This document shows positions 1 through 9,156 of a stretch of 64,000 bases of DNA, piece by piece. The notes under the pieces are model-generated. The model saw only the letters and a program-made list of their open reading frames with translations. It searched no databases and had not been told where the DNA came from. Every line of letters starts with the position of its first letter. Position 1 is the stretch's first letter. The DNA comes from Muribaculaceae bacterium. Lineage in GTDB: Bacteria; Bacteroidota; Bacteroidia; Bacteroidales; Muribaculaceae. Position numbers and translations under genes: made by a program. Location of the stretch: assembly GCA_023663365.1 (NCBI GenBank), contig JAMPHP010000007.1:1-64000 (forward strand), written 5' to 3'.

Positions 1-2
1 TC

Positions 3-1124
3 TCGATGAACTACGTGCTCACCGGTGCCGACAAGAGCATCGTTGACCTCACCCTCACCACCGACCACCCCAACCGCCCCGAAATCGCCTTCAACTCGGT
101 GCCCGTGCAGCGCAACTACCGCACCAACATCTTCGGCGCGCTCCTGACCAACCCCGCCAACTTCGAGGTTGAAATCGACAAGGAGTTCGGCGGCAACCAC
201 GACGTCGAGATAAAGGTCGTAGAGACTGCCGAGGAGCTCAAGGAAGCCATTGCACAGGGTGGCGATATTGTACTGCCCGCAGGCAAGACTATCGACGTGA
301 GCGAATTTATCACCGGCGATGCCGAGAACCTCTCCATCGACGAGCCCACCACCCTTCATATTGAAGGCACCCTTGCCAATGAGGCCCGTGGCCGCATCAA
401 TGTCACCGCACCCCTCATCGTGGAAGGCGGCAACATCGAAGTCGGCGAAGACTCCTACGGTATCTTCAACATCAAGAACGGCGGCTCGCTCAAGATGACC
501 GGCACCAAAATCACTCACAATAACAAGAAAGACGGCACACCCATCGGCCTGCGCGAAAATGGCTCGATTGAGCTCGAAAACGTAGAGATCAACTCGGGCT
601 TCGGCACCGTGTGCAGCTGGCGCGCCACAAGCTCCGGCACCATCTCGGCCAAGAACTGCATCTTCCGCTCGACATCGAACGAAGCCCGCGGCGGCCTGTA
701 CACTTACGCATTTAATATTGAAGGACCGGTAGAAGTAGTGCTCGACAACTGCGAGGTTTCCGGCGTACAGGGTGGTCTCGCGGCAGTTCAAGGAGCCAAA
801 GTCACCGTCAACGGCGGAAAATACTTCACCCACAAGCTCGCTGACGAGCCCAAGGCTCAGAACCACTATGCCGCTTATGCAGCACAGAACGGCCGCATCA
901 TCATCAACAGCGGCGATTTCTACTCCGAAGGCATGATGTCAATCTTAAATGGCGACAACGACAACCCCGGCGATCCTTTCGGCAGCTTTGAAGTGTACGG
1001 CGGCCGTTTCTCCGACCAGGGCTACGACGGTTCCATCCGCGACATCATCCACCTCTCCGACGACTATGTTTGGCAGCCTATCGAAGGTGACCCCATCTTC
1101 CACTGGACCGTTGTGAAGAAATAA
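3..1124 (+). CDS. Fimbrillin-like surface lipoprotein, beta-helix tip (5' partial)
   Basis: This is the 3' part of a gene that begins upstream of the window; reading is open to base 1 and the first complete codon starts at 3. The first ~65 residues match the end of the fimbrillin-like (DUF6562-type) module of the next two genes almost exactly and stop matching right after the GGNHD residues. The remaining ~300 residues differ from the neighbours: repeated short beta-strand/turn units with many N, G and V residues (for example NGGSLKM, NGSIELEN, GAKVTVNGGKYF) that look like a right-handed parallel beta-helix, without GLUG motifs. Inferred role: a cell-surface stalk/tip protein or adhesin. The signal peptide and lipobox lie outside the window. 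It is followed 37 bp later by a paralogue on the same strand, so the genes are probably cotranscribed. Confidence 0.8.
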   Translation, partial: SMNYVLTGADKSIVDLTLTTDHPNRPEIAFNSVPVQRNYRTNIFGALLTNPANFEVEIDKEFGGNHDVEIKVVETAEELKEAIAQGGDIVLPAGKTIDVSEFITGDAENLSIDEPTTLHIEGTLANEARGRINVTAPLIVEGGNIEVGEDSYGIFNIKNGGSLKMTGTKITHNNKKDGTPIGLRENGSIELENVEINSGFGTVCSWRATSSGTISAKNCIFRSTSNEARGGLYTYAFNIEGPVEVVLDNCEVSGVQGGLAAVQGAKVTVNGGKYFTHKLADEPKAQNHYAAYAAQNGRIIINSGDFYSEGMMSILNGDNDNPGDPFGSFEVYGGRFSDQGYDGSIRDIIHLSDDYVWQPIEGDPIFHWTVVKK

Positions 1125-1161
1125 AGAATTCTACAAACTGACATAAACCTGATATCAATCA

Positions 1162-3594
1162 ATGAAAAAGTATATCTACGGCACCCTGGCTATCGCAGCC
1201 ATTGCCATGGCCTCCTGCTCGCAGGAAGAGCCCGTGACTCCTCCCGCAGGTGACGGCACCGTGACCTTCTCGGCCAAGCTGCCCTCCATCGCTTCGCGTG
1301 CATTCGCCGACGGCACCACCGCCGCCAACCTCGACTACTACGTCTACGACGCAGAGGCAGCCGAGGGCGCGGCTCCCGTAATCACCGGCACCGCCACCTT
1401 CGACGCCGACCTCACAGCGCAGGTCAACCTCTCGCTCGTCACCGGCAAGACCTACGACATCGTGTTCTGGGCTTCGTCGGGAGCTGATTGCTACACCTAT
1501 ACCGAAGCCGACCGCTCCATCACCGTGACCTACGGCGGCGAAGCCAACGATGAGGCCCGCGACGCCTTCTTCAACACCGTGCAGGGCCTTGAGGTGAAGG
1601 GCGCAATCAACCAAAGCGTGGTCCTCAACCGACCCTTCGCTCAGGTCAACGTCGGCACTTCCGACCTCGACATCGCCTCAGCCGCAGGCTTCGACCTCAC
1701 CACCACCGGCCTGAAGATGGTGCTCCCCACCACGCTCAACCTCATGGATGGTACCGTGAGCGGCGAGGAGGCGGTAGCTGTCGAGTTCACTCAGACCGCC
1801 ATTCCCACCGCCGAGACCTTCCCCGTAGAGCCCACGACCTACGACTACATCTCGATGAACTACGTGCTCACCGGTGCCGACAAGAGCATCGTTGACCTCA
1901 CCCTCACCACCGACCACCCCAATCGCCCCGAAATCGCTTTCAACTCGGTGCCTGTGCAGCGCAACTACCGCACCAACATCTTCGGCGCTCTTCTGACCAA
2001 CCCCGCCAACTTCGAGGTGAAGATCGACAAGGAGTTCGGCGGCAATCACGACACGGAAGTCCCCGGCATCGTGTTCGACGAAGCCACCAAGACCTATACC
2101 ATCTCTGATGCCGGTGGCCTCGCCACTCTTGCCGAGATGGTAAACGGAGGCGAAAGCCTTGAAGGCATGACCGTGCTGCTGGCCGCCGACATCGTGCTCG
2201 CTGAGCCCGCCGCCGGCATAGGTACCTTCATCAACAACGGTGGCAGCGCTGCAGCAAAGAGTGCACCTTTCATGGGTACTTTCGACGGCCAGAACCACAC
2301 CGTGACAGGCTTCACAAGCACCGTCAGCGACTACAAGACCGCGGCCGGCTTCTTCGGCTACGTAGGTGGCGGAGCCGTGATCAAGAACCTCACCCTCAAA
2401 GATGCCGCCATCACAGGCACAGCCTACACCGGTGCGCTTATCGGCAAAGCTGACAAGGGCAAGAGCTGGGTGACCATCGAGAATGTGACCATCGACGGCG
2501 CAACAGTGATTTCGGTGCCTGCAATGGGCAGCGACGGCGCATACGACGGCGGCAACAACGTGGGCGGCCTCGTAGGCATCACACAGTACGGCATGGACGT
2601 GCAGGGTTGCACCGTGAGAAATTCGAGCGTGAGCGGCTATGCCAAGGTCGGCGGCATGTTCGGCATGGTGTGCAACATGAACCAGAGCGGCGACACGAAC
2701 CACACTGTCTACGCCAACAACAGCGTGATCAATACCACTGTGGCTCAGGACCTCACCAATGCATATGAGGCCACCGTGCCGACCACTATAGGTCAATTCT
2801 ACGGAATGCTCTCGGGCAGCGCGCTCCCCGACACCAACACCGCCACCGATGTCACCACCGGCATAGGCGTGTCCACTCCTGCAGCCCTGCAGGCTATTGC
2901 TGCGGCAGTCAATGCGGGCGACAACTTCAAGGGTAAGACCGTGCTGCTCATGGCCGACCTCGACCTCAAAGGCATAGCCTGGACACCGATAGGCAACGTT
3001 CTGGCCTATCCCTCGGTATCGTTCAACGGCATCTTCGACGGCCGCGGCCACACCATCTCCAACCTCACCGTCGACGACAAGACCCCCAACTATGCCTGCG
3101 CCGGCCTCTTCGGCTCCATCAACGGTAAGATCCGCAACCTCACGCTCAAAGACGTGAATGTGAAATCCACACACTACGCCGGTGCTCTCGTGGGCTACTC
3201 GTCGACCAACGTAGGCATGGAAATCTCCAACTGCCATATCGACGGCGGCACTGTCACTTCCGTACCCGAGCTCATCAACGGCTCTTACGACAACGGCGAC
3301 AAGTGCGGCGGCCTCATCGGCTACACCGTGGTAGGCGACGTGATCAAAGACTGCTCGGTGAAGAATGTCACCGTGCGTGCATACCGCGACCTCGGTGGCC
3401 TCGCAGGATACTCAACCGGCATAGCCACCATGACAGGCAACCACGTGGAGAACGTGACCGTAATCCAGGACAATACCAACGGCTACTCGTCGTCGCCCGT
3501 CACTACATATCGCGAAATCGTGGGCCGCTTCAATACCGGCGATCCCATGCAGGAAAACACTGCGACCAACGTAACTCTCCAATCTGTAAACTAA
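1162..3594 (+). CDS. Fimbrillin-like lipoprotein with GLUG-repeat C-terminus (copy 2)
   Basis: 810 residues. The N-terminus has a lipoprotein signal with lipobox MASC (Cys19), followed by SQEE, an acidic tail typical of Bacteroidales surface-exported lipoproteins. Residues ~30-297 form a DUF6562/fimbrillin-like beta module ending in the VQRNYRTNIFG segment and KEFGGNHD. Residues ~300-810 hold two blocks of GLUG-like repeats (GTFDGQNHT, GFFGYVGGGAVIKNLTLKD, GGLVGI, GGLIGY), each about 240 residues. GLUG repeats are found in bacterial surface adhesins and peptidases. Inferred function: surface stalk with an adhesive or carbohydrate-binding tip, possibly a type V-pilus-related component. No catalytic motif is visible. 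It lies between two paralogues, with 37 bp upstream and 15 bp downstream. Long stretches of the N-terminal coding DNA are identical to the third copy. Confidence 0.85.
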   Translation: MKKYIYGTLAIAAIAMASCSQEEPVTPPAGDGTVTFSAKLPSIASRAFADGTTAANLDYYVYDAEAAEGAAPVITGTATFDADLTAQVNLSLVTGKTYDIVFWASSGADCYTYTEADRSITVTYGGEANDEARDAFFNTVQGLEVKGAINQSVVLNRPFAQVNVGTSDLDIASAAGFDLTTTGLKMVLPTTLNLMDGTVSGEEAVAVEFTQTAIPTAETFPVEPTTYDYISMNYVLTGADKSIVDLTLTTDHPNRPEIAFNSVPVQRNYRTNIFGALLTNPANFEVKIDKEFGGNHDTEVPGIVFDEATKTYTISDAGGLATLAEMVNGGESLEGMTVLLAADIVLAEPAAGIGTFINNGGSAAAKSAPFMGTFDGQNHTVTGFTSTVSDYKTAAGFFGYVGGGAVIKNLTLKDAAITGTAYTGALIGKADKGKSWVTIENVTIDGATVISVPAMGSDGAYDGGNNVGGLVGITQYGMDVQGCTVRNSSVSGYAKVGGMFGMVCNMNQSGDTNHTVYANNSVINTTVAQDLTNAYEATVPTTIGQFYGMLSGSALPDTNTATDVTTGIGVSTPAALQAIAAAVNAGDNFKGKTVLLMADLDLKGIAWTPIGNVLAYPSVSFNGIFDGRGHTISNLTVDDKTPNYACAGLFGSINGKIRNLTLKDVNVKSTHYAGALVGYSSTNVGMEISNCHIDGGTVTSVPELINGSYDNGDKCGGLIGYTVVGDVIKDCSVKNVTVRAYRDLGGLAGYSTGIATMTGNHVENVTVIQDNTNGYSSSPVTTYREIVGRFNTGDPMQENTATNVTLQSVN

Positions 3595-3609
3595 TCACGA
3601 AATAAGTCA

Positions 3610-6171
3610 ATGAAAAAGTATATATATGGTGCTCTGGCCATAGCCGCCATCACTATGGCCTCCTGCTCGCAGGAAGAGCCCGTGGCTCCTCCCGCAGGTG
3701 AAGGCAACGTGACCTTCTCGGCCAAGCTGCCGGCCATCGCGTCGCGTGCCTTCGCCGACGGCACCACCGCCGCCAACCTCGACTACTACGTCTACGACGC
3801 TGAGGCTGCCGAGGGCACTGCTCCCGTTATCACCGGCACCGCCACCTTCGACGCCGACCTCACCGCGCAGGTCAACCTCTCGCTCGTCACCGGCAAGACC
3901 TACGACATCGTGTTCTGGGCTTCGTCGGGAGCTGATTGCTACACCTATACCGAAGCCGACCGCTCCATCACCGTGACCTACGGCGGCGAAGCCAACGATG
4001 AGGCCCGCGACGCCTTCTTCAACACCGTGCAGGGCCTTGAGGTGAAGGGCGCAATCAACCAAAGCGTGGTCCTCAACCGACCCTTCGCTCAGGTCAACGT
4101 CGGCACTTCCGACCTCGACATCGCCTCAGCCGCAGGCTTCGACCTCACCACCACCGGCCTGAAGATGGTGCTCCCCACCACGCTCAACCTCATGGATGGT
4201 ACCGTGAGCGGCGAGGAGGCGGTAGCTGTCGAGTTCACTCAGACCGCCATTCCCACCGCCGAGACCTTCCCCGTAGAGCCCACGACCTACGACTACATCT
4301 CGATGAACTACGTGCTCACCGGTGCCGACAAGAGCATCGTTGACCTCACCCTTACCACCGACCACCCCAATCGCCCCGAAATCGCCTTCAACTCGGTGCC
4401 TGTGCAGCGCAACTACCGTACCAACATCTTCGGCGCGCTCCTCACCAATCCCGCCAACTTCGAGGTGAAGATCGACAAGGAGTTCGGCGGCAACCAGGAT
4501 GTAGATCAGTCGGGTGACGAAATCGCCCCTGGTGTCCGCTTCAATGCCGACACCAAGACCTATATCCTCAGCTCTGCCGAGGGCATGGAGTGGTTCGCCA
4601 ACGAGTCCAAGACCAATCTTTTCACCGGCTATACCGTGAAACTCTCTGCCGACATCGACCTTAAAGAGGTGGCTTGGACTCCCGTGGCTAAAAACTCGTA
4701 CTTCAACGGCACATTCGACGGCGCCGGCTTCACCGTAGCCAACCTTACGGTGAGCGACCCCGATGCCGCCGGCCTCTTCTGGTCGGTGCGCGGCACGGTG
4801 AAAAACCTCACCCTCACCAATGTGAATGTCAGCGGCAACTTCAAAGCGGGTGCCGTGAGTGGCGACGGCCTTTGCGGACACTTCGAGAACTGCACCGTCG
4901 ACGGCGGTAAGGTGGTATCGACACCCCGCCTCAAAGGCGGAGTCTACGACGACGGCAACAACGTGGGCGGCATCACGGGCTACCTCTCGGCCGAACCCTC
5001 GGCATCGCTCACAGGCTGCACCGTGCGCAACCTCACCGTGCAGGCCTATCGCACAGTGGGCGCAGTGGTGGGTACTCTCAACAACAGCGCTGCTGTATTC
5101 GAGAACAACACCGCCGAGAACTGCAAGGTGATCTCCTTCCAGAATACTCAGAACTACGACGGCGCACCCCGCCGCCCCGAAGCCGGTGAGCTCTTCGGCC
5201 GCACCGTCAACTCCGCCACCCCCGGTGCCGGCAACACTGCCACCGCAGTGGAGGTATCGGAGCTTAAGGCTGATGATGGCGGCAATGTGGCCGTCAGCAG
5301 CGCCGAAGCATTTCGTGCCGTAGGTGCCATTGTGGCTGCCGGCAACGACTTCAAGGGAGCCACGCTCACCCTCGATGCCGACATCGACCTCGAAGGGCAG
5401 GGTATGTACATCGGCTCTTGGGCAAATCCTTTCCGCGGCACTTTCGACGGTCAGGGCCACACCATAGCCAATGTAAGTGTCAATCCCGAAGGTGTTGACT
5501 ACGACCAGATTGGCCTTTTTATGCCCAACAGAGCCACTATCAAGAATGTAGTGATCGACGGTGCCACCGTGCGCGGCCGCCACAACATCGGCCTCATCGC
5601 CGGCAACTGCCAGTACAGCAAATTCGAGAATATCACCGTGAAAGGCCTCGTGCAGATTACCGTGAGTGGTAACGACTGCGGTGTCATCGCAGGTAAATAT
5701 GCCATGAACAGCAGCGACATCACCATCGATGTGGAGCCCGGCAGCTTCGTGAAGTGCACGCGCGTGAACAATCTCAACTTCATAGGCGGTGTATTCGGCT
5801 ACACCGAAGAGCCCGCCACGTTCACCAACATCAAGAGCAACATCGACGTGATCGGTGTAGGCGCCGGTGTAGGTGGCGTCACCGGAATGGCACACCGCGG
5901 CACCAAGTGGATAAACTGCTCCTCGAGCGGCAACATCTCCGTGGCCGTCGGCACTAACCCCGACAACGACGAGCTCACCATTGGCGGCATCGCCGGTATG
6001 TGGATGAAAAATGAAGGCGCACACGTTGTGATGCAGGGCTGCTCATTCACCGGCACTCTCTCATCGACTCTCAACGGCGAGCCCGTGGAGCTCACCGACC
6101 GCTACCGCTACAGCGGCCTCGACTGGAACGGCGCTCCCAACACCGACAGCTGTCTCGAAATTATCGACTAA
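3610..6171 (+). CDS. Fimbrillin-like lipoprotein with GLUG-repeat C-terminus (copy 3)
   Basis: 853 residues. Signal peptide and lipobox (MASC, Cys19, then SQEE) match copy 2, and the fimbrillin-like module (residues ~30-297) differs from copy 2 at only a few early positions. After KEFGGNQD the sequence departs: a first GLUG-type block (residues ~300-540; TFDGAGFTVANLTVSD, AGLFWSVRGTVKNLTLTN, VGGITGYLS) and a second, related but distinct block (~560-853; TFDGQGHTIANVSV, IGLFMPNRATIKNVVIDG, GVFGYTEEPATFTNI). Inferred function: surface adhesin with the same anchor/stalk and a different tip. Last gene of the array; a strong hairpin terminator follows 20 bp after the stop. Codon use matches the neighbours. 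Confidence 0.85.
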   Translation: MKKYIYGALAIAAITMASCSQEEPVAPPAGEGNVTFSAKLPAIASRAFADGTTAANLDYYVYDAEAAEGTAPVITGTATFDADLTAQVNLSLVTGKTYDIVFWASSGADCYTYTEADRSITVTYGGEANDEARDAFFNTVQGLEVKGAINQSVVLNRPFAQVNVGTSDLDIASAAGFDLTTTGLKMVLPTTLNLMDGTVSGEEAVAVEFTQTAIPTAETFPVEPTTYDYISMNYVLTGADKSIVDLTLTTDHPNRPEIAFNSVPVQRNYRTNIFGALLTNPANFEVKIDKEFGGNQDVDQSGDEIAPGVRFNADTKTYILSSAEGMEWFANESKTNLFTGYTVKLSADIDLKEVAWTPVAKNSYFNGTFDGAGFTVANLTVSDPDAAGLFWSVRGTVKNLTLTNVNVSGNFKAGAVSGDGLCGHFENCTVDGGKVVSTPRLKGGVYDDGNNVGGITGYLSAEPSASLTGCTVRNLTVQAYRTVGAVVGTLNNSAAVFENNTAENCKVISFQNTQNYDGAPRRPEAGELFGRTVNSATPGAGNTATAVEVSELKADDGGNVAVSSAEAFRAVGAIVAAGNDFKGATLTLDADIDLEGQGMYIGSWANPFRGTFDGQGHTIANVSVNPEGVDYDQIGLFMPNRATIKNVVIDGATVRGRHNIGLIAGNCQYSKFENITVKGLVQITVSGNDCGVIAGKYAMNSSDITIDVEPGSFVKCTRVNNLNFIGGVFGYTEEPATFTNIKSNIDVIGVGAGVGGVTGMAHRGTKWINCSSSGNISVAVGTNPDNDELTIGGIAGMWMKNEGAHVVMQGCSFTGTLSSTLNGEPVELTDRYRYSGLDWNGAPNTDSCLEIID

Positions 6172-6190
6172 TCTAATCCTTCTATATGTG

Positions 6191-6230
6191 TCCACCCGGC
6201 AAGTTTTCGCTTGTCGGGTGGATTGTTGTT
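6191..6230 (+). terminator. Rho-independent terminator of the lipoprotein array
   Basis: Inverted repeat TCCACCCGGCAAG / CTTGTCGGGTGGA (6191-6203 and 6210-6222, one G-T mismatch) with loop TTTTCG and a T-rich tail (TTGTTGTT). It starts 20 bp past the stop of the third lipoprotein gene. Confidence 0.8.
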
Positions 6231-6302
6231 GGGGGGAATAGGGAGGCCATCGCCATTGGCGCTTACGCAAGAAATCCGCTGCGGCGGGAAGTTACTCCCT
6301 TC

Positions 6303-6368
6303 ACCTTTCCTGGGTTTGGAAACCCCACTGAAGGGTTGCGGGGGATAATGAAATCCCCCGCGGCGGGG
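6303..6368. repeat. GC-rich palindromic dispersed repeat, copy P1
   Basis: This 66-bp segment matches 46965-47030 at about 59 of 66 positions by eye. It contains a 9-bp perfect stem GCGGGGGAT / ATCCCCCGC (6338-6346, 6353-6361) around a six-base loop AATGAA. Further GCGGGG/CCCCGC units follow up to about 6415. It sits in the convergent gap between the lipoprotein array and the fructose bisphosphatase gene (6172-6431), which holds no gene. Confidence 0.75.
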
Positions 6369-6431
6369 CACGGCGGGCAATCCCCCGCGGCGGGGCGTGG
6401 CGGGGCACGGTGGGGCAACTACGGATAAGGA

Positions 6432-8417
6432 TCAGCGCTCTTTGATGAGGCCGTGACGGTAGGCGAAGAGGAGTTCTTTGAGTTCGTCGATCTGGGCCTG
6501 GAGCTCGCGGCCTTTGTCGGTGTCGCGCACGCGCATACGGTGGTTTGTGAGCTCTACAATCTCGGTGGTGGATACGATGTCGGTGCCGTTGCGGATTGCT
6601 TCGTCGGCCGAGGTGAATGGCTCGTGCTTCACGAGCTGGAAGCCGCGTGAGTGGAACACGAGGGTGTAGCCTGCAATACCTGTAGTGGCGTGGTAGGCCT
6701 TTGCAAAGCCTCCGTCGATGACCATGAGCTTGCCTCCGGCGCGGATAGGGAGTTCGCCCTTTGAGAGCTTGACGGGTACGTGGCCGTTGATGATGTGGCG
6801 ATGGTTGCCGCCCACACCGAACTCGTCGAGAATCATATCGCACACCTCGGGTTGGTTGCGCAGGTCGTAGTAGTGTCCTTTCTCCTCGTGGTAGGTGGCT
6901 TTGTCGGTGAGGAAGTATCGCTCGAAGGTGGCCATCTTCGATTTATCGAAGAGAGGGGAGTCGGGGCCGCACCACAGGTACCAGTAGAAATCGCGGGCAT
7001 AGTCGCGGTCGGCCGCCGGGGTGTCGTAGTTGAAGGCCGCCCGCATCACTGCCTCAGTCTTTTCCATGAGCGCACGACCTTTATAGCTCTGTCCGGCGAT
7101 ATCCACTCCGCGCAGTGTGCCGTCGATGTTCATGGGCAGGGAGGCGTGGAAGAGTAGGTTGGAGTTGTATACGCCGTACATCGAGCCGTGGCTCAGGAGG
7201 AGCTTCACGTGGCGCGCGAGCTTGTCGCTCACTCTGAACGAGTGGCACAGCTTGGCAATGAGCTGCTCCTCGTCGGGGGTGAGGCGGTATGGGTCGGCGG
7301 GGTCGATGGTGGGGAAGTTGGTGTCGTTGAGTGGGTATTCCTTGCCCTCGATGTTGATGATGCCGCGATTGTAGTCGATGCACTCGAGCAGGAGGCGGTC
7401 GTCCATCTGCCACTCGGGGTGCTTGCGGATGAGCGCGCCCTCGACCTTGAACTGGAGGATTGCTATGGCCTTGTGCATACGAGCGCTCAGGCGTAGGGTT
7501 TTCTCCGACATGTCGTCGCTGTCCTCGCTGAGCTTGGGCTCGAAGCCGCGGCAGTCGTCGTCGGCGTAGGTCTCCATGGCGAATGTTGCCAGCGGCACAA
7601 GGTTGATGCCGTAGCCTTCTTCGATGGTTGCGAGATTGGCGTAGCGGAGCGATATGCGGAGTACGTTGGCTATGGATGCCTCGTTTCCGGCGGCGGCACC
7701 CATCCAGAGGGCGTCGTGGTTGCCCCACTGGAAGTCGAATTTATCGTATGCCGCGAGGGTGTCGAGGATGATGTGAGCGCCCGGGCCGCGGTCGTAGACA
7801 TCGCCGAGGATGTGCAGGTGGTCGATGCTGAGGTGCTGGATCACATTGCACATGGCCACGATGAAGGCGTCGGCGCGGCCTGTGGTGATGATGGTCTCGA
7901 TGATGCGTGCGAAGTAGGCCTGCTTATCCTCTTCGGAGGGCGACTCGTGGAGCAGCTCCTCGATGATGTAGGCAAACTCATGCGGCAGCGCCTTGCGCAC
8001 TTTCGAGCGGGTGTACTTCGAGGTCACCGACTGGAGCACCTTCACGAGGCGATGCAGGGTGATGGTGTAGAAGTCGGTGATATTGACAGCCGGGTCTTCG
8101 GTGATGTACTCGAGCTTTTTCTCAGGATAATATATGAGGGTGCAGAGCTCGCGTATGTCGGCTGCCGAGAGCGAGGTGCCGAAAATCTCGGTGACTTTTC
8201 GCTTGATGTTGCCCGAGGCATTGCGGAGAATGTGCACGAAGGCCTCGTGCTCGCCGTGGAGGTCGGCCACGAAGTGCTCGGTGCCTTTTGGCAGGTTGAG
8301 GATGGCCTCGAGGTTGATGATCTCGGTGGAGGCAGCGCCTATGTTTCGGAAAGTGTTCGAGAGAAGCTCGAGAACGCGCCTGTCGGCACTGACTTTTTCT
8401 TCGGTAAAGCCGGACAT
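6432..8417 (-). CDS. fbp: Class 3 fructose-1,6-bisphosphatase
   Basis: 661 residues, the usual length for the class 3 (Firmicutes/Bacteroidetes) enzyme that hydrolyses fructose 1,6-bisphosphate to fructose 6-phosphate in gluconeogenesis. Metallophosphatase motifs are clear: VADLHGEHEAF near residue 53, GDVYDRGPG near 203 and FQWGNHDALWMG near 231, plus INGHVPVK and MVIDGGFAKAY near the C-terminus. The start is ATG at 8417; upstream in-frame context gives no better start. It lies downstream of a small outer-membrane protein gene on the same strand, separated by 43 bp that hold a tandem ATGAGKT heptamer tract. Cytoplasmic. Confidence 0.95.
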   Translation of the reverse strand: MSGFTEEKVSADRRVLELLSNTFRNIGAASTEIINLEAILNLPKGTEHFVADLHGEHEAFVHILRNASGNIKRKVTEIFGTSLSAADIRELCTLIYYPEKKLEYITEDPAVNITDFYTITLHRLVKVLQSVTSKYTRSKVRKALPHEFAYIIEELLHESPSEEDKQAYFARIIETIITTGRADAFIVAMCNVIQHLSIDHLHILGDVYDRGPGAHIILDTLAAYDKFDFQWGNHDALWMGAAAGNEASIANVLRISLRYANLATIEEGYGINLVPLATFAMETYADDDCRGFEPKLSEDSDDMSEKTLRLSARMHKAIAILQFKVEGALIRKHPEWQMDDRLLLECIDYNRGIINIEGKEYPLNDTNFPTIDPADPYRLTPDEEQLIAKLCHSFRVSDKLARHVKLLLSHGSMYGVYNSNLLFHASLPMNIDGTLRGVDIAGQSYKGRALMEKTEAVMRAAFNYDTPAADRDYARDFYWYLWCGPDSPLFDKSKMATFERYFLTDKATYHEEKGHYYDLRNQPEVCDMILDEFGVGGNHRHIINGHVPVKLSKGELPIRAGGKLMVIDGGFAKAYHATTGIAGYTLVFHSRGFQLVKHEPFTSADEAIRNGTDIVSTTEIVELTNHRMRVRDTDKGRELQAQIDELKELLFAYRHGLIKER

Positions 8418-8425
8418 GCTGAGAA

Positions 8426-8458
8426 GATATGAGTTATGAGGTATGAGTTATGAGGTAT
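8426..8458. repeat. Short tandem ATGAGKT heptamer tract
   Basis: Between two minus-strand genes the sequence repeats ATGAGTT ATGAGGT ATGAGTT ATGAGGT, a four-unit 7-bp tandem. The same words recur near 28757-28785, 28947-28985 (reverse), 39162-39240 and 46876-46903. Confidence 0.7.
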
Positions 8459-8460
8459 CC

Positions 8461-9156
8461 TTAGAAAGTCACACCGATTTTCACCGTGGCGAAGTGGAGG
8501 TCGGTGAAGTCGTGCGTCATCTCTTCACCCACCACCTTGCGGCGCTGGATGAAAGAGTATCCCATGAACATGTGCGATGAGAACTTCGCATTTCCGGCGA
8601 GCCTGAAGCCTATGCCGGTAGAGCCGTAGATGCCTGTCTGCTGGTGGTTGTGCTCGAGGTAGTTGAGCGATACACCGCCTTTTAGCTCCCAGAACACGCG
8701 TGTGGGGCGGTCGGTGAAGTTTGTGCGGAAGAGGAGGAAGAGAGGGTAGGAGCGGAAGGAGTTCGACACGGGGATATTGGCCTGCGCACCCACGCCGAGG
8801 AAGTTTATCCACCCGCGCTTCATGCCGAAAGCGAGGCCGAAGTCGATTGAGCTCATGTCGTTGCCGCTCATGTCGATGGAAGCCCCGAGGTCGGCACCCC
8901 ATGCGAATTTCACTTTGATTTTCTCTTTGGGGGCGGTGGTGGCGGGGCTTGTGGTGGCGGTGTGGCGCTTCTGCGGTATGGGAGCGGGGATTGGCACGAG
9001 CTCGTCGTCGACTACGGCGGCTGCCGAATCGGCGAAAATCACGATGGTGCCGCGCTCGACATACACGGTGTCGTGCGGCGCTTCGGAGGCTCGCAGGGCG
9101 GGGGCGCACAGCAGTGCTGACATGCAGCCAATCAGGATGGAGAGCAGGCGGTTCAT
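8461..9156 (-). CDS. Small outer-membrane beta-barrel protein
   Basis: 231 residues. An N-terminal signal peptide (hydrophobic residues ~4-22) is followed by a low-complexity Pro/Ala/Thr linker and, from residue ~80, alternating amphipathic strands ending in an aromatic residue (VKIGVTF), the usual signature of an outer-membrane barrel of the PorT/OmpA-barrel-like type. No specific family is recognised. Its start overlaps the stop of prmA by four bases (9153-9156), so the two are translationally coupled. The function is unknown; envelope location is inferred from the signal peptide and terminal Phe. Confidence 0.75.
   Translation of the reverse strand: MNRLLSILIGCMSALLCAPALRASEAPHDTVYVERGTIVIFADSAAAVVDDELVPIPAPIPQKRHTATTSPATTAPKEKIKVKFAWGADLGASIDMSGNDMSSIDFGLAFGMKRGWINFLGVGAQANIPVSNSFRSYPLFLLFRTNFTDRPTRVFWELKGGVSLNYLEHNHQQTGIYGSTGIGFRLAGNAKFSSHMFMGYSFIQRRKVVGEEMTHDFTDLHFATVKIGVTF

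Follow-up and report, generated by a model that had tools for sequence, protein, structure and literature searches.

In the Neisseria pilE/pilS system, silent cassettes vary one expressed pilin by gene conversion, and proteins of the CDI/Rhs type combine a constant N-terminal part with an exchangeable C-terminal tip. The bacterial family S24-7 of the older literature is now called Muribaculaceae. Predicted fimbrial genes are reported for 80% of the S24-7 genomes of one study (PMC4936053). Type V pilus tip pilins of Bacteroidota are described as having a pilin-like fold, a lipoprotein precursor and, on the tip subunit, an extra C-terminal domain (PMC12632263). For the type V fimbrial cluster of Porphyromonas gingivalis, two types are reported in which a conserved 5′ part of fimC (>96% nucleotide identity) is joined to a divergent 3′ end accompanied by fimD and fimE (PMC5266723); what differs there between strains is a single block made up of the 3′ part of fimC and two whole genes.

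Here we describe a tandem array of three genes in a Muribaculaceae genome, together with its relatives in other genomes, in which an N-terminal module (termed the stalk) is shared and the C-terminal part (termed the tip) varies. We consider it likely that such genes encode the tip subunits of a type V pilus-like system, and that their tandem layout permits in-frame swapping of tips by homologous recombination. They resemble the type V tip pilins in the features just listed, and an anchor-like gene probably lies nearby; they differ in that several tip genes stand in tandem, with genome-specific, often homogenised stalks that belong to DUF6562. With fimCDE they share the joining of a conserved 5′ part to a divergent 3′ part, but here single tips differ, in tandem arrays, at the module end and between species and genera. 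The likeness to pilE/pilS would lie in homologous recombination among pilin copies and in the defective copies of some arrays, whereas in the present arrays the stalk frame is intact in most of the sampled copies and it is the N-terminal module that stays constant. The constant N-terminal and exchangeable C-terminal parts recall CDI/Rhs; however, the Pfam matches of the scanned proteins included no toxin or immunity domain, and the tips that can be named are like GLUG, M26_N or beta-helix domains. A literature search that covered few subscription papers found none describing homogenised stalks with exchanged tips, and none naming DUF6562.

The window, the whole stretch of DNA analysed, comprises 64,000 nucleotides, positions 1–64000 of contig C32 (66,738 bp) in a genome of 2.86 Mb and 34 contigs; other genomes are designated by G and a number. 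The start of C32 cuts off the 5′ end of copy 1 (Table 1). A preliminary description had proposed one stalk module common to the three tandem genes, and this holds: the module is complete in copies 2 and 3 (∼297 residues) and represented by its surviving end in copy 1. It terminates in the motif GGN[H/Q]D, the D of which falls on residue 297 of copies 2 and 3 (positions 2052 and 4500) and on position 203 in copy 1. Between copies 2 and 3 the stalks agree at 96.5% of 887 nt, and the first ∼200 nt remaining of copy 1 are 96% identical to both. Rfam, at gathering scores, gave no match in window positions 1–7000. The neighbour gene of 661 aa, which we take to be FBPase, was tried as a second control and was present in 13 of 18 genomes.

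Table 1. Features of the array, in window coordinates unless a contig is named
Feature	Position	Strand	Description
Copy 1 gene	3..1124	+	
Copy 1, 3′ part only	1..1124	+	last ∼67 stalk residues to 203, then tip of ∼305 residues
Copy 2 gene	1162..3594	+	810 aa
Copy 2 stalk	1162..2052	+	lipoprotein signal, Cys19, Arg46, DUF6562 module; ends in GGNHD; PF20200 44.5 bits
Identical tract in copy 2	1417..1904	+	488 nt, same as 3865..4352 in copy 3; read as a gene-conversion tract
Copy 2 tip, GLUG-type	2053..3594	+	closest tip elsewhere in G059, 67% over 260 aa
Copy 3 gene	3610..6171	+	853 aa
Copy 3 stalk	3610..4500	+	ends in GGNQD; PF20200 42.9 bits
Identical tract in copy 3	3865..4352	+	partner of the 488-nt tract 1417..1904
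Copy 3 tip, M26_N/GLUG-like	4501..6171	+	closest tip elsewhere in G059, 47% over 460 aa
Neighbour gene	6432..8417	−	661 aa
N-terminal piece	C11:1335990..1336244		module residues 1–85; stops at a 100-N gap

The stalk module was assigned to a family by PF20200 (DUF6562), whose cut-off of 25 bits is passed by copies 2 and 3; the copy 1 fragment scored 23.7 bits (below cut-off) in the protein scan and 28.3 in the genome search. For a structural model of moderate confidence (pLDDT 69), the Foldseek and VIA-align lists were both headed by fimbrial proteins of Bacteroidota, including Mfa3, FimA and Mfa2, and the predicted fold is type V pilin-like, closest to Mfa3/FimA. A sequence-profile search of the PDB found no fimbrial chain, returning a single chain by a signal-peptide match (E 0.26), and so the structural claim rests on the fold search. 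Module-bearing genomes numbered 10 of 50 in the genus (single query), 56 of 298 in the family (profile search) and 16 of 393 in a sample of the order, 12 of these 16 belonging to six other families. Copy numbers per genome are lower bounds, no more than seven (family) or five (order sample) candidates having been scored; a scan of genome contigs confirmed only three loci. For comparison we drew up a sample of 78 complete stalks from 35 loci in 29 genomes, chosen mostly for having at least two copies, so that its proportions are not family frequencies. Cys19, as in a lipoprotein precursor, is present in all 78, and so is Arg46, which resembles a pilin processing site; Arg46 was dropped as proof of processing, since anchor-like proteins carry Arg in the same stretch (by eye) and the residue therefore does not discriminate. 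There is one Peptidase_C11 match in the genome.

A fourth N-terminal piece, on contig C11, has its own signal peptide, yet its stalk start is nearly identical to those of copies 2 and 3. On its 5′ side lie a DUF3575 gene and a lipoprotein gene matching DUF6562 at 2.2e-79, and matching the Mfa2 model only at E 0.018, under the cut-off. An anchor-like gene likewise precedes the stalk genes at many of the relatives' loci. Copy 1 probably starts on C11, which would place an anchor-like gene near the array. We found no stalk-only gene next to the array of the window, whose join to C11 is putative; some relatives have stalk-only genes of 267–338 aa, and one gene elsewhere in the window's genome matches Mfa_like_1.

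The statement of the preliminary description that the three tips are unrelated stands for copy 1, whose tip has no blastp match (E ≤ 1e-3) to the other two, but the latter are distantly related to each other (33% identity over 478 aa). Both had been called double-GLUG tips; Pfam (E ≤ 0.1) recognises a single GLUG stretch in copy 2 and no such stretch in copy 3, while Peptidase_M26_N matches both, that of copy 3 falling just under the cut-off. The beta-helix attributed to copy 1 is not named by Pfam, nor is one found in the members of its tip cluster from G021 and G059, and the G156 member has a weak Pectate_lyase_5 match below the cut-off. Among the proteins of 20 relatives, Pfam names tip domains as GLUG, M26_N, Beta_helix, NosD or a weak pectate-lyase domain, and leaves others unnamed. 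The copy 1 class accounts for 11 of the 76 sampled tips, and one loose cluster takes in 47. Both main classes recur across species on genome-specific stalks (window, G021, G059 and G194). The tips may act as adhesins.

The change from stalk to tip is abrupt. Over the 60 residues past the module end, aligned without gaps, the three pairs of window copies have 4, 8 and 6 identities; copies 2 and 3 differ from codons 295–297 on, and then at nearly every codon just after. The copies had been said to diverge at exactly the same codon; the place is indeed the same, to within about 3 codons. We extended the comparison to 25 pairs whose stalks reach 60% identity or more and whose tips lack a blastp match; the pairs are not independent, as they share genes and over half of them draw on a few array copies from a single genus. 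A two-rate change-point fell between −13 and +7 residues from the module end in 24 of these pairs, so that the gradual boundary that would have spoken against a module swap was looked for and a sharp one found; the remaining pair (G276 4598/6467) changes at +25. In G013, which has two operons, stalks of ∼75–81% DNA identity are yet 96–99% identical over ∼70 codons around the junction.

Within the stalks, differences are unevenly spread. The 34 differences between copies 2 and 3 over 891 nt leave a 488-nt run with none (Table 1), and 0 of 20,000 uniform draws gave a run as long. An identical run of 713 nt in G071 likewise had no equal in 20,000 uniform draws, and the first 160 codons of one G194 pair gave 16 in 20,000; these tests assume uniformly distributed differences and do not model varying constraint. 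In G194, one pair is also alike for ∼100 nt upstream of the ATG, as duplication would equally give. In G156 no base differs between the stalks over 295 codons, the tips are without a match to each other, and the DNA upstream of the ATG is not alike (20–50% per 10-nt bin). Gene conversion between existing paralogues fits such tracts, because conversion ends where homology ends. The run tests, which ignore varying constraint, led us to reject uniform divergence since duplication.

Tips are borne by 67 of the 78 stalks, 58 of them in 26 loci with at least two. For these 58 genes the nearest stalk lies in the own array for 29 and in another genome for 29, and the nearest tip lies in another genome for 52; both at once, nearest stalk at home and nearest tip abroad, applies to 25. 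Nine arrays, including that of the window, have stalks 72–100% identical within the genome, whereas complete stalks from other sampled genomes reach 57% identity to them at most (array identity/best complete stalk elsewhere, in %: G156 100/49, G071 99/52, window 97/53, G194 83–95/57, G227 95/51, G088 92/50, G059 81/57, G021 72/52, G130 72/50), and all 19 of their genes find their best tip match in another genome. In a quick tree of stalks the pairs or trios of these nine arrays are sisters, with SH-aLRT of 99–100. A truncated G049 stalk, outside the sample of 78, is 57–59% identical to those of the window. By these sequence comparisons, stalks in the nine arrays are homogenised within the genome. 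This is not general, being absent in half of the genes from multi-gene loci; stalks mostly track orthology in G276/G280/G317, G189/G218 and G013/G006. For the window, where each GLUG-type tip is closer to a tip of another genome than the two are to each other, the best account of the stalk likeness is that older paralogues were homogenised, and not that a tip was recently swapped.

Exchange of tips is seen where arrays are collinear. In G276 and G280, of one genus, the flanks are 90.6% identical over 2613 nt and 89.6% over 3769 nt, the latter taking in one tip-bearing slot. Their tip-bearing slots number four: in two the tip is conserved (86% and 80% identity), and in the other two the stalks are 82% and 86% identical and the tips have no match. 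Read towards the 3′ end, the swapped slots show chance-level identity as far as the stop codon and 85–95% from ∼20 nt past it, with one low-identity bin at one slot, and BLAST matches restart 18–61 nt past the stops; the exchanged piece thus comprises the tip and a few tens of bases. At slot 2617/2922 the stalk frame is intact in both genomes; the G276 tip resembles one in G202 (46%) and the G280 tip has no match among the 76 tips. At slot 4598/4879 the stalk copies are defective in both; the G276 tip recurs in G317 (63%), and the G280 tip resembles one in G227 (35%). Another pair of congeners, G189 and G218, has one slot with stalks 68% identical and tips without a match. These slots break the fixed one-to-one orthology that the preliminary description had named as the outcome contrary to its proposal, and with the sharp junction they bear out a cassette in which the stalk is constant and the tip diversifies. 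Defective stalks comprise two in G276 without start and signal peptide, and two in G280 and one in G317 with a broken frame; they may be decayed copies or a reservoir of tips.

The converse, one tip on different stalks, is also found. Between G071 and G156, of two genera, tips are 76% identical, stalks 40% and AlaS 77%; the figures for G257 and G261, of one genus, are 77, 41 and 76%, and in both cases identity steps up at the module end. (The AlaS comparison left out G130, with a partial match, and G227, at 22–25% from a wrong longest open frame.) Such cases are a minority, as among 108 alignable cross-genome tip pairs the median identity is 36.5% for tips and 40.9% for stalks, and the tip is the more conserved in only 33.

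Four other explanations were weighed. Tandem duplication followed by fast divergence of the tips, under relaxed or diversifying selection, with a conserved stalk, would agree with the 33% likeness still seen between two window tips and with the loose cluster of 47, but we hold it to be very unlikely: closer tip relatives occur in other genomes than in the own array for nearly all genes counted above, the G156 stalks are without a difference beside tips without a match, the stalks of the nine arrays are too far from those of other genomes to be slow, and tips at 76–77% on stalks at 40–41% contradict it. Tips might instead be fixed orthologues of old paralogues that never move, with only the stalks converted genome by genome. 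The window, G021, G059 and G194 all fit this; it is nevertheless an unlikely account of the whole, given that orthologous slots carry unrelated tips in G276/G280 and in G189/G218 (one of these three slots being defective in both genomes).

Exchange or mutation of tips by site-specific recombination or a diversity-generating retroelement (DGR) seems to us highly improbable. Point mutation by a DGR is not known to replace whole domains, which counts against this agent. In its favour, DGRs are reported on Bacteroides tip pilins (PMC12632263). Window positions 1–6500 hold 20 inverted pairs of at least 16 nt, all imperfect (72–88%) and none judged an inversion device, which also speaks against this explanation; on the other side, three of these pairs place an arm close to where the stalk ends in each copy (79, 79 and 75% complementary). 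Mis-joining of stalks and tips in short-read assembly can hardly be credited. The contigs of the window and of G049 do break inside a stalk, as near-identical repeats predict, C11 is a scaffold with N gaps and most of the genomes are drafts; however, shared stalks with different tips also occur in G227, a single contig, and on megabase contigs in G071 and G156, in arrays without an N run, and the swapped tips of G276 and G280, draft genomes with no N run in these loci, have no counterpart in each other's array where the two arrays are compared.

The likely reading, then, is in-frame tip swapping by homologous recombination among pilus tip genes, and it would work as follows. Each protein has a lipoprotein signal followed by a pilin-like stalk and, C-terminally, a tip, and the tandem order gives every tip inside the array stalk sequence on either side; with a tip between two stalks, homologous recombination can exchange it without disturbing the frame. 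Recombination between stalks, by gene conversion, by crossing-over or with incoming DNA, would keep the stalks of one genome alike and could replace a whole tip in frame, from the module end to shortly past the stop, so that tips may be replaced, deleted or added with the frame untouched. The likeness of the stalks would provide the homology, and recombination would in turn maintain the likeness. A docking partner shared by all copies, be it anchor or shaft, might be the reason that the stalk is kept common while the tip is free to vary. More tentatively, and in our view less likely than not, the stalk-tip-stalk-tip layout could be an evolved recombination-ready device, with defective copies as a reservoir, tips exchanged within and between species and the fast-evolving stalk as a private docking key.

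Very little is described as known of the ligands of type V pili in gut Bacteroidales (PMC12632263). The arrays offer natural chimeras, one stalk with several tips and one tip on different stalks, with which the specificity of tips, the matching of stalk and anchor and the rate of exchange become testable. Homologous recombination is a likely means of renewing tips, in addition to the retroelements already reported, and the exchange of tips suggests how such gut bacteria could renew their adhesion targets.

Two operons of one relative's genome, G013, carry stalks (the shared N-terminal module) that are ~75–81% identical, and around the stalk–tip junction their DNA is 96–99% identical (L033 6891-9689 versus L032 6233-8464). 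We read this junction-spanning likeness as a conversion tract on the tip side. Tip-like domains also occur outside the arrays of two other genomes, enclosed in open frames of 2000–2108 aa, and the defective stalk copies followed by a tip in L088, L089 and L092 are possibly silent tip cassettes or decay (table).

At window 6298-6404, a 68-nt stretch is 88% alike to L010:10199-10265, on scaffold C11 of the same genome; we read the element as a small dispersed repeat. Two gaps border shared sequence near a tRNA-Pro there, and therefore the join of C11 at the array may be unreliable.

Features in the window and in relatives' loci
Feature	Location	Remark
Direct repeat, 26-nt, G+C-rich	window 6298-6404	adjoins 3′ end of gene 6432-8417
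100-N gap	L010 9909-10008	C11; borders shared sequence
100-N gap	L010 16241-16340	C11; borders shared sequence
tRNA-Pro (called)	L010 9822-9895	near 100-N gaps of C11
Tip-like domain, 33-35% (range for both loci)	G227:C1:2458217-2458981	inside large open frame elsewhere in genome
Tip-like domain, 33-35% (range for both loci)	G189:C10:69607-70374	inside large open frame elsewhere in genome
Defective stalk, then tip	L088 (G276:C34) 4598-6289	without start and signal peptide, or frame break
Defective stalk, then tip	L088 (G276:C34) 6467-8161	same
Defective stalk, then tip	L089 (G280:C24) 4879-6246	same
Defective stalk, then tip	L089 (G280:C24) 6609-8027	same
Defective stalk, then tip	L092 (G317:C28) 8224-8742	same

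Tip-bearing genes are adjoined in L032, L033, L035, L036, L088, L089 and L092 by stalk-only genes of 322–338 aa, which end at the module end or ≤9 residues from it; these genes are candidates for the shaft pilin.
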